Source: Microtetraspora malaysiensis
Lineage (GTDB): Bacteria; Actinomycetota; Actinomycetes; Streptosporangiales; Streptosporangiaceae
Length of the DNA: 64,000 nt
Reading direction: 5' to 3'
NCBI RefSeq assembly: GCF_001528665.1
Contig: NZ_BBYJ01000008.1
Coordinates: 1 to 64,000 of the forward strand
Part shown: positions 29,898-34,586 of the stretch, one piece after another
Position numbering within the stretch: position 1 is the first letter of the stretch
Layout: the number at the start of each line of letters is the position of its first letter
Made by a program: the position numbers and the translations under genes
The notes under the pieces: model-generated
What the model saw: the letters and a program-made list of their open reading frames with translations, nothing else
Told to the model about the DNA's origin: nothing
The model's database searches: none

Positions 29898-31096
29898 CCG
29901 CACGACTTATTCAGCCATCCGGGCGCGGCTTCCTGCTGTTCGACTCCCACCCTGCGGGGTGCGCGCGGATCGTCGCCGACATGGCGGCCCAGGTCCGGCG
30001 GCAGACGCGACCGGGTGAGGGGAAACGGCCGGTCGCCTTGATCATCGGCTCCAGCGCCGGTTACGGACTGGCCACCGCGGTCGCCGGGATCACCCGGTAT
30101 GGCGTGCAGGGGGTGGGCCTGTGCTTCGAGCGTCCTCCGACCGCGCGCCGGACGGCGACGGCGGGGTGGTACCGAACGATCGCCACGGCCGCGCTCGCGC
30201 AGGAGGCCGGGAGCGATTTCGCGTTCGTCAACGGGGACGCCTTCGCCGACGCCACCAAGGATGACGTCCTCGACCTGGTGGCCAAGCGGTTCGGGGGCAT
30301 CGATTACCTGATCTACAGCGTTGCCGCGCCCCGTCGCACCGACCCGGTCACGGGCGCGCTCCATCAGTCGGTGATCCAGCCCGTCGGGGCCGAACACGTC
30401 ACCAAGACGCTCGAATTCGACGGCGACGGGACGCCCCACTTGAAGGAGATCCGCGTCCAGCCCGCCACGGACGAGGAGACGGCCGACACGGTCAAGGTCA
30501 TGGGCGGTGAGGACTGGGCGCGCTGGGTCGACGCGCTGGAGGCGCGCGATCTGATCCGGCCGGGATTCACCACGGTGGCGCTGTCCTACATCGGTTCCCA
30601 TCTCACCTCGGCCATCTACCGGGCAGGGACGATCGGGGCGGCCAAACTGCATCTCGAGGGGGCGGCATCCGTCCTCGGGGACCGGTTGAGCGCCTACGGC
30701 GGTCGTGCCCTGACCTCCGTCAACGGGGCGGCGGTCACGCAGGCGTCGACGGCCATCCCCGGCATCGCCCTGTACGTGAGTCTGCTGCGCGATGTCCTGG
30801 GTGAGGGCATGGCGTCGCCGCTGGCCCAGTCCATCGATCTGTGGGATCAGCTCACCGGGGCCGCCCCGCTCGACACCGACGAACAGGGCCGCGTCCGTCT
30901 CGACCGTTGGGAGCTGGCCGAGGAGGTTCAGGCGGCGGTGACCGAGCGATGGGAGGCGGCGACCCCTGACACCATCGGGGATCTCGCCGACACCGGCTGG
31001 TTCGGGGACGAGGTCCGGCGGCTGTACGGCTTCGCGGTGCCGGGCGTGGACTACTCCCTGCCCTCCGACCCGGATCTTCCCTGGCCCGCCGTCTGA
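29894..31096 (+). CDS. fabV: Enoyl-[acyl-carrier-protein] reductase FabV
   Basis: NADH-dependent trans-2-enoyl-ACP/CoA reductase of the FabV class, 400 residues, which completes the fatty acid elongation cycle. Family features: RGFLLFDSHPAGC near the N-terminus, nucleotide-binding GSSAGYGLATAVAG near residue 52, and the active-site Tyr242-x8-Lys251 pair in YRAGTIGAAK. The C-terminal part with DWDQLTGA-like content is complete. FabV enzymes are known to be insensitive to triclosan, unlike FabI. ATG 29894 overlaps the stop of a 36-codon leader ORF. Confidence 0.95.
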   Translation: MTARLIQPSGRGFLLFDSHPAGCARIVADMAAQVRRQTRPGEGKRPVALIIGSSAGYGLATAVAGITRYGVQGVGLCFERPPTARRTATAGWYRTIATAALAQEAGSDFAFVNGDAFADATKDDVLDLVAKRFGGIDYLIYSVAAPRRTDPVTGALHQSVIQPVGAEHVTKTLEFDGDGTPHLKEIRVQPATDEETADTVKVMGGEDWARWVDALEARDLIRPGFTTVALSYIGSHLTSAIYRAGTIGAAKLHLEGAASVLGDRLSAYGGRALTSVNGAAVTQASTAIPGIALYVSLLRDVLGEGMASPLAQSIDLWDQLTGAAPLDTDEQGRVRLDRWELAEEVQAAVTERWEAATPDTIGDLADTGWFGDEVRRLYGFAVPGVDYSLPSDPDLPWPAV

Positions 31097-31212
31097 ATTC
31101 GCGGACGGAAACGCCGCTCACGCGGCCGGTGATTTGTTTTCCGCCGCCGCCGCGGCGCTCAGATGATCGCCGTCAGAGCTTTTGGCGACGGGGGTCGTTC
31201 TGAGGGGGTGAA

Positions 31213-31253
31213 GTGGCCGCCCGAGGCGACCTGACCTCGCCTCGGGCGACCAC
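31213..31253. terminator. Long hairpin after fabV
   Basis: A 12-bp perfect stem (31218-31229 with 31237-31248) extended by GTGG/CCAC across one mismatch (31213-31216 with 31250-31253). No U-tail. It lies about 115 bp after the fabV stop. Confidence 0.65.
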
Positions 31254-31411
31254 CAGGCCAGAGTACGGCCTGATGCCCCCGTTCGGAAATTCCCTTCGGC
31301 GGTCCATCGTCCAGAATATTAATTCGTTGGTGAAATGAGGAGTTCCAGGCGGATCGGCACGTGGGAAAGCCCTGTCCGGAAACCCGCTGTCGTGCCGCCG
31401 GAATGCCGCGA

Positions 31412-31417
31412 TATCGT
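31412..31417 (+). promoter_or_regulatory. TATCGT -10 box before the EamA leader peptide
   Basis: TATCGT ends 7 nt before ATG 31425, the same geometry as other leaderless starts in this window. Confidence 0.45.
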
Positions 31418-31424
31418 GCTCCTC

Positions 31425-31460
31425 ATGCGATTGATCATCTCTCCGCCGCCCGCCCGATAG
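31425..31460 (+). CDS. Proline-rich leader peptide ORF (11 codons)
   Basis: ATG 31425 to TAG 31458-31460 encodes MRLIISPPPAR. Three Pro codons (CCG CCG CCC, 31443-31451) overlap the left arm of the hairpin that ends on the stop codon. There is no ribosome site, but a TATCGT box lies 7 nt upstream, consistent with leaderless translation. Poly-Pro stretches are slow to translate without EF-P, so ribosome stalling here is plausible. Confidence 0.4.
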   Translation: MRLIISPPPAR

Positions 31461-31531
31461 CGGGCGGACCCTCTCGTCAGCCGGACCCGCGCGGTCCGGC
31501 CGGTGGTGGCTGCCCGCTTTCCGGGCCTTTT
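31446..31531 (+). promoter_or_regulatory. Candidate leader-peptide attenuator of the EamA gene
   Basis: Three elements compete. Hairpin 1 pairs CCGCCCGC (31446-31453) with GCGGGCGG (31460-31467). The latter can instead pair with CTGCCCGC (31510-31517; one G-U pair), which forms the left arm of the terminator-like GCCCG-CTTTC-CGGGC-CTTTT at 31512-31531. A ribosome held on the Pro codons covers the left arm of hairpin 1 and would favour the antiterminator. An additional hairpin (31480-31487 with 31493-31500) lies between. Confidence 0.4.
31512..31531 (+). terminator. Small U-tailed terminator in the EamA leader
   Basis: A 5-bp GC stem (GCCCG/CGGGC, 31512-31516 with 31522-31526) with a 5-nt loop, followed by CTTTT. 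It is short but carries a real U-tract, unusual in this genome, and sits 25 bp before the EamA start. Confidence 0.45.
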
Positions 31532-31556
31532 CCATCACTCACCACGAGAGAGATCA

Positions 31557-32486
31557 ATGACGCATGTTCCCGCCCTGCCTGTACGGCGGGGCCTGATCTT
31601 CGTGTCCGCCGCCGGGATCGCCTGGGGAACCGGGGGAGCGGTCGGCGACTTCCTGCGGAGGGCGGGTCACCTCGGCCCGGTGGCCGTGACCTTCTGGCGG
31701 TTCGTCATCGGGGCCGCCCTTCTGCTCGCCGTGGCGTTCTTCAGCCGTACGGCGGGCCCCCGGCGGCTCGCCGCGCCGCGATCGTGGGGGATGCCCCTGG
31801 CGCTCGGGGTGGCCATGGCCGTCTCGCAGGTCACGTACTTCGCGGCGATCGCCGAAACCGGCGTCGCCCTGGCCACGATGATCGCGATGGGTGCGAACCC
31901 CCTGTTCGTCACGGCCGGCTCCCGGCTCCTGTTCGGCGAGCGGCCGGGACGGGCCGTGAAGGCGGGCGTCGCCGCGGCCGTCGCCGGCCTGGCCATGCTC
32001 GCCGGAGGGCCGGGCGAGTTCTCCGCCGCCGGCGTCGGCTACGCCGTCCTGTCGGGGGCGACGTACGCCGCGGTGACGCTGCTGAGCGGCGTCGAACGCG
32101 GCCGGGCGGCCCCCGGGCAGACGATGGCCTGGTCCTTCGCGGCCGGTTCCGTCTGCCTGCTGCCCCTCGCGCTGGCGGACGGCGTCGTCCCCTCCGGAGG
32201 AGATTCGGGGGCGGCGGCGCTGTCGCTGGCCTATCTGGGCGCCGTCCCGACCGCGCTCGCGTACGGGCTGTTCTTCGCCGGGCTGGGCGTGGTCAGCGGC
32301 ACGACGGCCGCGGTCGTCGTGCTGCTGGAACCCCTGGTCGCCGCGCTCATCGGCGTCCTCCTGCTGGGCGAGCACCTGACCGCGCTCCAACTCGCCGGTG
32401 GCACGCTGCTGATGGCCGCCGTCTACCGGTTGGGGCGGGCCGAACTCGCCACCGGCCCGGCGGAGGAGGGCGGCGGCCGCGGCTGA
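31557..32486 (+). CDS. EamA/DMT-superfamily transporter
   Basis: A 309-residue protein with ten predicted membrane helices in two EamA repeats (about residues 10-140 and 150-295). The segment AGIAWGTGGAVGDFL starts repeat one, and LGAVPTALAYGLFFAGL with LLEPLVAALIGVLLLGEHL marks the end of repeat two. Such proteins export or import amino acids, metabolites or drugs; the substrate is unknown. The proline-codon leader upstream suggests a link to amino-acid supply or translation stress. ATG 31557 follows GAGAGAGA at 31546-31553. Confidence 0.92.
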   Translation: MTHVPALPVRRGLIFVSAAGIAWGTGGAVGDFLRRAGHLGPVAVTFWRFVIGAALLLAVAFFSRTAGPRRLAAPRSWGMPLALGVAMAVSQVTYFAAIAETGVALATMIAMGANPLFVTAGSRLLFGERPGRAVKAGVAAAVAGLAMLAGGPGEFSAAGVGYAVLSGATYAAVTLLSGVERGRAAPGQTMAWSFAAGSVCLLPLALADGVVPSGGDSGAAALSLAYLGAVPTALAYGLFFAGLGVVSGTTAAVVVLLEPLVAALIGVLLLGEHLTALQLAGGTLLMAAVYRLGRAELATGPAEEGGGRG

Positions 32487-32547
32487 TCCCGCCGGGGTCA
32501 GGAAGGCGTTCAGCAACGAGATCGCCGGCGGTGTCGCGGGCGTGGAC

Positions 32548-32577
32548 GCCGGGGCCGCTCAGTGCGGCGGCCCCGGC
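32548..32577. terminator. Bidirectional hairpin between EamA and SMP-30 genes
   Basis: GCCGGGGCC (32548-32556) pairs with GGCCCCGGC (32569-32577) around a 12-nt loop. It lies between convergent genes and could terminate both transcripts. Confidence 0.6.
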
Positions 32578-32596
32578 CCGAGCCCCGGGGGCGGTG

Positions 32597-33424
32597 TCAT
32601 CCGGCGAACCGGCGTTCCGGCAGGCCCGTGCCCGCCCCCGGCAGCACGAACAGCGACCCGGAGAGCGGCTGCCCCTCCTTGGCCTCGGAGGTGATGTAGA
32701 GATCGGTCAGGCCGGGACCGCCGAACGCACAGGCGGTCGGCTGGTCCACCGGCACGTCCACGACACGGTCGAGCCGCCCGTCGGGCGCGTACCGGCGCAC
32801 CTGGCCGCTGCCCCAGACGGCGACCCACACGCAGCCGTCGGCGTCCACGGTGAGCCCGTCCGGCGAGCCGCCGTCGATCGCGGTGAACACGCGCCGCCCG
32901 GACAGCTCGCCGCCCGGCGAGAAATCGAAGACGTCCACGCGCCGGGTGGGCGTGTCGGCGTAGTACATGAGCGTGCCGTCGGGGCTCCATCCGATGCCGT
33001 TGCTGATGGTCACGCTGTCCAGCGCCGTGGTCACCGAACCGTCAGGGTCCACGCGGTAGAGGCGCCCGCCGCCGGGCGCCTGGTCGTACCGCATCGTGCC
33101 CGCCCACAGCCGTCCCTGGGGATCGACCGCCGCGTCGTTCCCGCGTACGCCCTCGCGCGCCAGGTCGGCCAGCCACCGGAAACCGCCGTCCGGTTCGAGC
33201 AGCCCCACCCCGTCGACCAGGTTGAGCACCAGCCCGCCGTTCGCGCGGGGTCTCGCCGCGCCCACGTGCTGCGGCGCGTGCCGTACGGTGTCGTAGCCGG
33301 TCGACGGGGAGAAGTAGTGGATCTCCGCTGCCGGGATGTCCACCCACAGCAGCTCGCCCGTCTCCGGGAGCCACGTGGGTCCTTCGGCGACCTGGGCGTT
33401 CGTTCTCAACGCGATTTCAACCAC
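32597..33424 (-). CDS. SMP-30/gluconolactonase-family lactonase-like protein
   Basis: A six-bladed beta-propeller protein of 275 residues related to gluconolactonase and senescence marker protein 30. Metal-site elements are present: Glu14 in VAEGPTW, the Asn of VRGNDAAVDPQGRLWAGT, and the Asn and Asp of ISNGIGWSPDG and SPDGLTVDADG. It would hydrolyse a sugar or other lactone, substrate unknown. GTG 33424 overlaps the end of the FAD oxidoreductase gene by 8 bp, so it is the last gene of the ECF41 operon. Confidence 0.9.
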   Translation of the reverse strand: MVEIALRTNAQVAEGPTWLPETGELLWVDIPAAEIHYFSPSTGYDTVRHAPQHVGAARPRANGGLVLNLVDGVGLLEPDGGFRWLADLAREGVRGNDAAVDPQGRLWAGTMRYDQAPGGGRLYRVDPDGSVTTALDSVTISNGIGWSPDGTLMYYADTPTRRVDVFDFSPGGELSGRRVFTAIDGGSPDGLTVDADGCVWVAVWGSGQVRRYAPDGRLDRVVDVPVDQPTACAFGGPGLTDLYITSEAKEGQPLSGSLFVLPGAGTGLPERRFAG

Positions 33425-34586
33425 GGATTCGGAGCCTAGCCGAGCGATCCTTTCCCGACAGCGCGGCCGCCGCCGCGTCGAGGGCGCTGTGGACGGCCAC
33501 CTCGCCGAGCAGGCCGGGAGCGGCCACGGAGTCGCCCGCGAGCCAGACGCCGTCGCCCCGGTCGATCGCGGGCCGGTCCCGCCAGGTCAGCCCGGGAAGG
33601 TCGAGCGCGCCGGTCCGGCCCGCCGCCACGGCGTCGCGCCGCCAGGTCAGGCGGTCCCGCCAGCCCGGCAGGCCGAGGTCGGCGATCCGCTCCAGCCTCG
33701 CGACGGCCGCGGCCTTCGACTCACCCGGCCGCATCGGCATCTGCAGCTGGACCAGACTCTCGTCGCGAGGCGCGAGCGTCGGATCGGGCAGCGAATACCG
33801 TTCGAGAAAGCCGCCCTCGTCCAGATCGGAGATCAGGAACATGTCGTCCGGCCGCCGGCGCACGGCCAGGTCGAGCAGGGCGGAACGGCCGCTCTCCCAG
33901 CTGAGGGTTTCGTCCCCGAGCAGGTTCCTGGCCGCGTGCAGCGATGTGGCCACGATCACCGGACCGGCGGGGAGTTCGTCGACCCGCGAGCCGGTCTCGA
34001 CGCGCACCCCCAGGCCGCGCGCGTGCGCGGCCATCCGGTCGATGACCCGTCCCCAGCCGCCGATGACGTAGCGGACCGTGGGATAGCGCGGCGAGAAGGC
34101 GCGCTTGAGGCGTTCCCAGACGAAGGCCGCGGACAGCCTGCCCGGATCGGCGTCGTAGGTGACGACGCCGAGCAGGCCTGCGGCGGCGCGCGCGGGCGCC
34201 GGGCCGAACCGGTGGCCGGCCCACGAACGGAAGTCCTCGTCCACGGGCGCGCGCACCCCCCGGCCGGCGGTCATGGCGAGCAGGCTCAGCGGCGGCCGCG
34301 CGGTCAGCCGGTCGCGGTACCTGAACCTGCTCCGGGCCAGTGCCCTCAGCGGCAGGCTCACGTACGGCCGGACCAGCTTCCGCTCCGTCAGCCACCGGAA
34401 CGGCGCGCCGTCGTAGAAGACGTGCGTGCCGTCGTTCGCGACGTACGGCGCGGCGGAGGACCGGGCGCGGCCGCCGAGGGTGCGGTGCGCCTCGTGCAGG
34501 GTGACGGCCGCCCCGCCCTCGGCGCACGCGATCGCCGCGGTCAGCCCGGCGAGTCCGCCGCCGATGATGGTGATGGTTTCGCTCAT
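33417..34586 (-). CDS. FAD-dependent amine oxidase/phytoene desaturase-like oxidoreductase
   Basis: A 389-residue flavoprotein. The dinucleotide-binding motif IIGGGLAGLTAA is at residues 7-18, followed by the GGRARS motif typical of the protoporphyrinogen oxidase, phytoene desaturase and monoamine oxidase superfamily. A C-terminal GDGVWLAGDSVAAPGLLGE segment closes the FAD site. Substrate unknown. It overlaps the sigma gene by 4 bp upstream and the SMP-30 gene by 8 bp downstream. ECF41 sigma genes commonly sit beside oxidoreductase genes, in line with this arrangement. Confidence 0.9.
   Translation of the reverse strand: MSETITIIGGGLAGLTAAIACAEGGAAVTLHEAHRTLGGRARSSAAPYVANDGTHVFYDGAPFRWLTERKLVRPYVSLPLRALARSRFRYRDRLTARPPLSLLAMTAGRGVRAPVDEDFRSWAGHRFGPAPARAAAGLLGVVTYDADPGRLSAAFVWERLKRAFSPRYPTVRYVIGGWGRVIDRMAAHARGLGVRVETGSRVDELPAGPVIVATSLHAARNLLGDETLSWESGRSALLDLAVRRRPDDMFLISDLDEGGFLERYSLPDPTLAPRDESLVQLQMPMRPGESKAAAVARLERIADLGLPGWRDRLTWRRDAVAAGRTGALDLPGLTWRDRPAIDRGDGVWLAGDSVAAPGLLGEVAVHSALDAAAAALSGKDRSARLRIRG

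Follow-up and report, generated by a model that had tools for sequence, protein, structure and literature searches.

Directly upstream of an EamA-family transporter gene of Microtetraspora malaysiensis lies an 11-codon reading frame with consecutive proline codons, which raises the question of whether translation of this frame controls the gene and, if so, at which step. The locus was studied within a 64,000-nt stretch of DNA, referred to here as the window. The first-pass annotation had described a transcription attenuator in which a ribosome stalled on three proline codons frees an arm that disrupts a U-tailed terminator hairpin. The TATCGT box, the 7-nt gap, the upstream open reading frame (uORF), and the three arm sequences on which that description rested were all confirmed at their positions (Table 1). 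The codons of the uORF read ATG CGA TTG ATC ATC TCT CCG CCG CCC GCC CGA TAG. The peptide precedes the transporter gene and probably controls it, as had been proposed; the proposed route through a terminator was not supported.

TABLE 1 Features of the leader and the downstream gene, in window coordinates
Feature	Position	Strand	Remarks
-10-like box, TATCGT	31412-31417	+	Followed by 7 nt, then the uORF ATG at 31425
Leader peptide uORF, MRLIISPPPAR and stop	31425-31460	+	11 codons
aSD1, part of the uORF, with complementarity to the SD and start codon of EamA	31430-31443	+	MFE fold; RNAalifold consensus, four pairs
Pro-Pro-x-Ala core, CCG CCG CCC GCC	31443-31454	+	Proposed arrest site; PPxA in 49/49 family leaders
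Arm 1, CCGCCCGC in the first register	31446-31453 or 31450-31456 (within 31446-31456)	+	Two registers; forms H1 with arm 2, around the stop codon
Arm 2, GCGGGCGG	31460-31467	+	GCGGGC in 49/49
aSD2, CCCTCTCG	31469-31476	+	CU-rich, the second segment with complementarity to the SD; partial in the window
Hairpin H2	31480-31500	+	Covarying pairs; 93.2% of cells paired
Hairpin H3	31502-31539	+	Encloses arm 3 and the small hairpin first read as a terminator; covarying pairs; 91.3% of cells paired
Arm 3, CTGCCCGC (TGCCCGC)	31510-31517	+	Alternative partner of arm 2
EamA SD, GAGAGA, and ATG	31546-31551 (SD), 31557-31559 (ATG)	+	
EamA-family (drug/metabolite) transporter gene, 309 aa	31557-32486	+	PF00892, 1.2e-35

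The product of the downstream gene is a presumed exporter. Its NCBIfam matches were generic and all under their cut-offs, and a sequence search of the PDB with the protein returned none. Plasmid records searched with an EamA protein of one further actinomycete family (f20, see below) and with its leader region likewise gave no match.

Conservation of the leader across genomes

A DNA search of 60 relatives gave seven matching genomes, the window's own genome perhaps being counted among them, and placed the leader ahead of EamA in two other genera (G022 and G005), where the reading frames further upstream differ. One further match (L006) was on inspection not a leader, and four short matches (L004, L005, L007, and L008) were not counted as leaders. 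When the peptide pattern SPPPA was used for searching, 33 genome records matched, 32 of which carry the leader ahead of an EamA-like start, in nine named genera: Planomonospora, Nonomuraea, Microbispora, Planobispora, Planotetraspora, Sphaerisporangium, Acrocarpospora, Streptosporangium, and Microtetraspora. The remaining record, from Streptomyces humicola (L074), had no leader-EamA pair and was treated as chance. When 394 genomes sampled across the class were searched for SPPPA, 14 matched; 3 of these (G528, G558, and G561) were without a leader-EamA pair and were taken as chance. A pattern with free x combined with CGGGCG matched 13 of the 394 genomes, 12 of them in the family, and the match outside the family (L149) was judged to be chance as well.

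Since SPPPA patterns could hardly return other peptides, an unbiased search was carried out with the EamA protein instead of the leader. At a cut-off of 1e-60, 50 EamA orthologues were found in 341 genomes of the family, the Streptosporangiaceae, and the upstream DNA of all 50 was inspected. The leader is present in 49 of the 50, with the peptide core SPPPA in 33 and, in the other 16, SPP with A, T, or V next. The sole leaderless orthologue (L148, in G326) has, by eye, a seemingly extended N-terminus and possibly an adjoining divergent gene; its leader may have been lost.

At 1e-45, EamA matches were present in 49 of the 394 genomes of the class-wide sample, 35 of these genomes belonging to two other families (f20 and f19). 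These 35 hold 36 orthologues, one genome having two, and all 36 are preceded by a boxed uORF with Pro-Pro near its stop codon, the peptides being as diverse as MHSTALVLPPPAA, MSSTVLSPPAA, VNAMALSPPVA, and MISAKLTVSPPTA, each followed directly by the stop. Family f20 is probably Streptomyces; a fragment of Streptomyces humicola is closest to it (80%), which agrees with that name, but G005 of the window's family comes next at 78%. The peptides SPPx and PPx thus emerged from the protein search. The finder used for these uORFs was positive in 36/36 forward sequences, in 0/36 reverse complements, and in 1.8% of 1,800 shuffled regions. A strict version that asks for PPxA, the stop, and GCGGGC found 33 of the 36 (it misses L178, L184, and L205), with no hits in reverse complements or shuffles. 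EamA is the downstream gene at every leader-bearing locus examined. From these comparisons of sequences, the leader is real and conserved beyond chance.

The distinct family leaders number about 58, namely 38 that were aligned first (alignment A1), 18 more, and L156 and L174. The alignment used below (A2) is a chosen set of 49 family leaders, obtained from A1 by removing the near-identical L042, L046, L048, L050, L052, L067, and L089 and adding the 18; it differs from the set of 49 leader-bearing orthologues described above.

Start box and peptide core

The box-then-frame layout first seen in the window is general. The T, A, and T of TANNNT are invariant in 49/49 aligned family leaders, and the gap between box and start codon is 6 nt in 36 of them, 7 nt in 11, and 9 nt in L131 and L132, these last two being read separately as the gap script had not parsed them. 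Outside the family the gap is similar, with 7 nt in 30, 6 nt in 3, and 8 nt in 2 of the 35 parsed leaders. In actinobacterial promoters, box-to-start spacing of this kind goes with a leaderless transcript. With 6 to 9 nt separating the TANNNT box from the start, the uORF is therefore probably leaderless or nearly so, its transcript starting at or beside the uORF start codon.

Translation of the uORF is predicted, and its arrest-type motif is conserved through synonymous changes in the family and, as Pro-Pro, in 36/36 leaders outside it. No leader of A2 deviates from Ser, Pro, Pro, and Ala, and the synonymous third bases of these codons vary: the first proline is encoded by CCG in 35 leaders, CCC in 9, CCT in 4, and CCA in 1, and the second by CCG in 35 and CCC in 14. 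Residue x of the PPxA core is P in 33, A in 8, T in 6, and V in 2 of the 49, and the last residue is R in 39, S in 4, H in 2, and F, V, A, or L in one each. The 35 parsed leaders outside the family all have PPxA as well, and the 36th (L205) reads PPAV. The residue preceding Pro-Pro is S throughout the family; among the 35 it is L in 26, S in 6, and P, T, or A in one each, and the tail of the peptide there is Ala in 25, Val in 3, and absent in 7. The N-terminus varies among leaders in both length and sequence.

On this comparison, what the peptides have in common is Pro-Pro, closely followed by small residues and a stop codon, not three proline codons. Of the SPPP peptide expected in relatives, SPP is invariant in 49/49 and the third proline is absent from 16/49, where x is A, T, or V. 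The idea that three proline codons form the sensor was abandoned, as these 16 leaders have two only.

Mutually exclusive pairings of the post-stop arm

The arm that follows the stop codon had been proposed to pair in two mutually exclusive ways, and both pairings proved to be conserved. In H1, the stop-codon hairpin, where it pairs with arm 1, at least seven pairs form in one register in 47 of the 49 leaders of A2, and fewer in L132 and L133; H1 shows no covariation and no pair with changes on both sides. Wherever x of the peptide core is not proline (16/49), the last residue is always Arg, and wherever the last residue is not Arg (10/49), x is always Pro. This coupling fits a need to hold the stop-codon hairpin in one of its two registers, given the at least seven pairs kept in nearly all leaders.

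In the alternative helix, formed by arms 2 and 3, at least 7 of the 8 pairs are present in 49/49 leaders (96.9% of cells paired). Within the six-base core of this helix the only changes, present in 4/49, are from C to U opposite G, and the outermost pair is broken in 11/49; the sequence directly 3' of arm 3 is highly variable. Outside the family, GCGGGC occurs within about 12 nt past the stop codon in 33 of 35 parsed leaders; the script assigned the wrong arm 3 in L182, and L169 has a weak one. A partner for arm 2 matching at least 7 of 8 bases is expected in 87% of shuffled regions and is not significant alone, so the argument lies in its fixed position and conservation and not in its presence.

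The leader as a whole (31425-31560) folds at -69.2 kcal/mol, with a z score of -5.2 against shuffles. RNAalifold, applied to 38 leaders, independently proposes a uORF:SD helix of four pairs together with H1, H2, and H3. When these four helices (aSD1:SD, H1, H2, and H3) were evaluated over 49 leaders, 90.4% of cells were paired, compared to 86.4% in shuffles, and 12 pairs were changed on both sides, compared to 6.6 (0/500 shuffles for all five measures), values that overstate independence because the sequences are phylogenetically related. Rfam gave no match at gathering score in 14 leader loci, and a search of 30000-33500 of the window at E ≤ 1 gave one weak match at 30910-31000, which does not overlap the leader and scores under its gathering threshold.

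Predicted sequestration of the EamA ribosome-binding site

The dominant helix in the fold of the window's leader, absent from the first-pass list of features, joins 31430-31436 and 31438-31443 with the SD and start codon of EamA (31546-31558). Across A2, the aSD1:SD duplex averages -13.7 kcal/mol, compared to -8.9 kcal/mol for synonymous recodings of the uORF; a threshold of -7 kcal/mol does not discriminate here, as the recoded uORFs already average -8.9. The fraction of recodings is below 0.05 in 31/49 leaders, and in the remaining 18 (fraction of at least 0.05) aSD1 is not clearly beyond them. The serine codon TCT is used in 33/49 uORFs, in contrast to 0 of the 111 serine codons in six ORFs of the window.

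A second segment, aSD2, follows the uORF and reads CTCTCTCC in several other genera. Its duplex with the SD averages -12.2 kcal/mol, compared to -6.6 kcal/mol for shuffled segments, and 36/49 leaders stand at a fraction of 0.05 or less. This segment is the stronger of the two where aSD1 is weak, for example in L068, L069, L126, L133, L135, L136, L139, and L146.

Of the 36 leaders outside the family, 35 were parsed (L205 was missed), 33 had an SD assigned, and 32 were folded. Here the arm-3 region reaches -14.8 kcal/mol with the SD region of the same leader and -13.1 kcal/mol with those of other species (0/5,000 permutations, n = 33; the relatedness of the sequences inflates this value, too), and in 24 of the 33 the pairing with the own SD is better than the leader's own cross mean. 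In the folding model without a ribosome, the mean probability that the SD is unpaired is 0.05 in 38 family leaders and 0.22 in the 32 outside, so the SD is predicted to be sequestered. Lineages seem to hide the SD with different partners, and the uORF, arm 2, and arm 3 stay.

These results bear on the step at which control is exerted. According to the initial reading, the hairpin of arm 3 is an intrinsic terminator and stalling on proline lets arm 2 pair with arm 3 and antiterminate. The order of the arms is indeed the classical one of 1:2, 2:3, 3:4, both arm 2 and arm 3 are conserved, and one terminator-like site is present in the window, where 0.3 are expected by shuffling. The U-tailed hairpin exists at the locus as a small stem of five G-C pairs (31512-31526) followed by CTTTTCC, a weak U run with four consecutive U, and this run sits within the larger, covarying H3. 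However, an 8-nt stretch with at least five T between arm 3 and the SD is found in just 6/49 family leaders, including that of the window, and in 2/33 outside the family, and the complementarity to the SD that is under selection would be needless for termination. The terminator was rejected as the main mechanism because its U run is not conserved, and transcription attenuation appears unlikely overall; a terminator that works without a U run, or through Rho, is a possible variant. That complementarity to the SD is kept and the U run of the small hairpin is not points to control of EamA translation, and the ribosome-binding site of EamA is more likely to be the control point than transcription termination.

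Proposed model of the switch

We therefore favor, with a probability of roughly two-thirds, a leader-peptide translational attenuator in which arrest at Pro-Pro frees the ribosome-binding site of EamA. From the conserved elements we infer the arrest, the order of folding, and the direction of control as follows. RNA polymerase would start at or beside the start codon of the uORF. As long as the uORF is untranslated, or is translated without delay, the SD and start codon of EamA would pair with aSD1 and the gene would be off; in many genera the partner in this off state would be aSD2, just past the uORF. Should a ribosome be arrested while its E and P sites hold the two prolines, aSD1 and arm 1 would lie beneath it, and arm 2, being freed, would pair with arm 3. 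The resulting helix would enclose aSD2 and break the hairpin preceding the SD, whereupon the SD would be released and the exporter made.

Masking the uORF in the folding model, as a stalled ribosome would, made the SD more accessible in the family (from a mean of 0.05 to 0.23), by over 0.1 in 24 of the 38 leaders. Outside the family, accessibility rose in 18 of 32 and fell in 6 (mean 0.22 to 0.31). The helix of arms 2 and 3 is seldom dominant at equilibrium, with mean probabilities of 0.09 in the family and 0.17 outside under a stalled ribosome, so the switch would need co-transcriptional folding. Equilibrium folding backs the switch only modestly, with a partial release of the SD; the switch is likely.

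With the ribosome placed at the stop codon or at Pro-Pro, the modelled probability of an unpaired SD was 0.13 or 0.23 in the family and 0.30 or 0.31 outside it. Release that is independent of ribosome position outside the family would suit a uORF that encodes a functional small peptide or merely couples translation, with Pro-Pro being kept for the peptide and the pairings arising as side effects of GC-rich codons. The conserved peptide core and the ease with which a partner for arm 2 is obtained by chance at this GC content agree with such a role. Yet the N-terminus of the peptide is variable in length and sequence, arms 2 and 3 are near-invariant outside the uORF, and the gene that follows is always EamA in the loci examined, which makes this account highly improbable. 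The translational attenuator remains our preferred reading.

Candidate inducing signals

If the attenuator responds to arrest at Pro-Pro, several signals are candidates for its inducer. In the context of an Escherichia coli NlpD reporter, weak stalling is described for PPP that follows Leu, Cys, Ala, Ser, or Thr (PMC4176338); the same source reports that PPPP stalls strongly and that the effect of APPP depends on context. Because PPP shows weak stalling of its own when preceded by L, A, S, or T in that one E. coli context, arrest would need a condition, and the leaders would be poised and require an inducer. The condition is most likely a ribosome inhibitor that acts on Pro-Pro, or else low activity of EF-P, which is encoded in the window's genome (EFP_N domain). 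Orthosomycins are an example lead for a Pro-Pro-specific ribosome inhibitor. A review describes evernimicin as acting in a sequence-dependent manner (PMC13410324).

The same switch could instead sense a shortage of charged tRNA-Pro, that is, proline starvation, and two proline codons are indeed kept in all leaders examined. There is a precedent in Salmonella mgtP, described as responsive to charged tRNA-Pro (PMC8092293). However, 16/49 family leaders have two proline codons only, the alanine is likewise invariant in the family, and a presumed exporter would hardly relieve a shortage of proline; for such a gene, induction by a drug or metabolite fits better. Proline starvation is thus a distinctly unlikely signal, and a Pro-Pro-specific inhibitor or a shortage of EF-P fits the leader better.

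A broader reading of the attenuator is tentative, with the odds somewhat against it. The leader may be an ancient actinomycete sensor of stress or drugs, in which a leaderless peptide of about 11 to 16 residues that ends in Pro-Pro-x-Ala senses a block of Pro-Pro synthesis caused by a molecule or by the state of a factor, the three-arm switch turns on translation of EamA, and the exporter removes the molecule. The device would have been kept in several actinomycete families and its SD-sequestering part rebuilt, as an anti-SD in the uORF, as one after it, or as a helix between the SD and the region of arm 3.

Sequence upstream of the leader

Several elements were observed ahead of the leader. 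At 31219-31247 of the window, about 165 nt ahead of the -10 box, is an inverted repeat of 29 nt, GCCCGAGGCGACCTGACCTCGCCTCGGGC, whose 7-nt middle is unchanged; it precedes the leader in identical form at the Microbispora and Microtetraspora loci and at most of those of Planotetraspora. A search of 25 genomes gave one exact copy in each of 13 and, in G027, one copy with a single mismatch. The repeat is on another contig than the leader in G060 and G027, about 2 kb off in G128, and in L207 it overlaps the 3' end of a frame that resembles, by eye, the window's MFS gene. It may be a terminator, an operator, or an RNA element.

In several genera, GATAA[CG]CNNTGG occurs 20 to 21 nt ahead of the uORF -10 box (L126, L129, L130, L133, L135, L136, L139, L145, L147, L068, and L069) and is a possible -35 element or operator. 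At four f20 loci (L190, L194, L195, and L202), the sequence before the uORF promoter resembles, by eye, the end of an EamA-type gene (..GAFIAQSS..), which suggests tandem transporters there.

Relation to known attenuators

Leader-peptide attenuators are a known kind of regulator, and amino-acid attenuators such as those of his, trp, and leu follow the same 1:2, 2:3, 3:4 arm logic. In contrast to these, the leader described here is without a run of codons for a single amino acid and without a conserved terminator. An orthosomycin-sensing leader reading frame (Mangano et al. 2022, Nat Chem Biol) reportedly shows antibiotic-dependent arrest at Pro-Pro-type motifs and may control a resistance gene. 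Such a motif would resemble the proposed arrest site of our leader, and the frame may be this leader or that of another gene.

In attenuators of the ErmC type, an antibiotic stalls the ribosome on a leader uORF, and the SD of the resistance gene is thereby exposed (PMC13410324). As described there, they share with the present case a short uORF, an internal arrest-type motif, paired arms, and, in the model proposed here, release of a downstream ribosome-binding site; here, by contrast, the uORF is probably leaderless, Pro-Pro-x-Ala stands near the stop codon, and the gene encodes an EamA transporter. For Salmonella mgtQ, occupation of region 1, formation of 2:3, and release of the ribosome-binding site of the Mg transporter are described (PMC8092293). 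Compared by description, mgtQ is alike in the proposed formation of 2:3 and release of the ribosome-binding site, and mgtP in its proline codons, whereas mgtP acts on transcription and mgtQ uses Asp/Glu codons. Unlike mgtP, mgtQ, and mgtL, the leader described here has Pro-Pro-x-Ala with an anti-SD inside the uORF.

Searches of the literature on leader peptides with EamA, polyproline and EF-P, orthosomycins and context-specific inhibitors, leaderless uORFs, and attenuation in Streptomyces returned no description of this leader in the titles and abstract openings among the matches listed, subscription papers lying mostly outside. The attenuator proposed here would be built on Pro-Pro-x-Ala and a probably leaderless uORF. 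The conservation reaches from genera of the Streptosporangiaceae to two further actinomycete families. If the proposed switch is true, the leader would serve directly as a natural reporter of anything that blocks Pro-Pro synthesis in actinomycetes, and it would provide a handle on the substrate of this EamA exporter.
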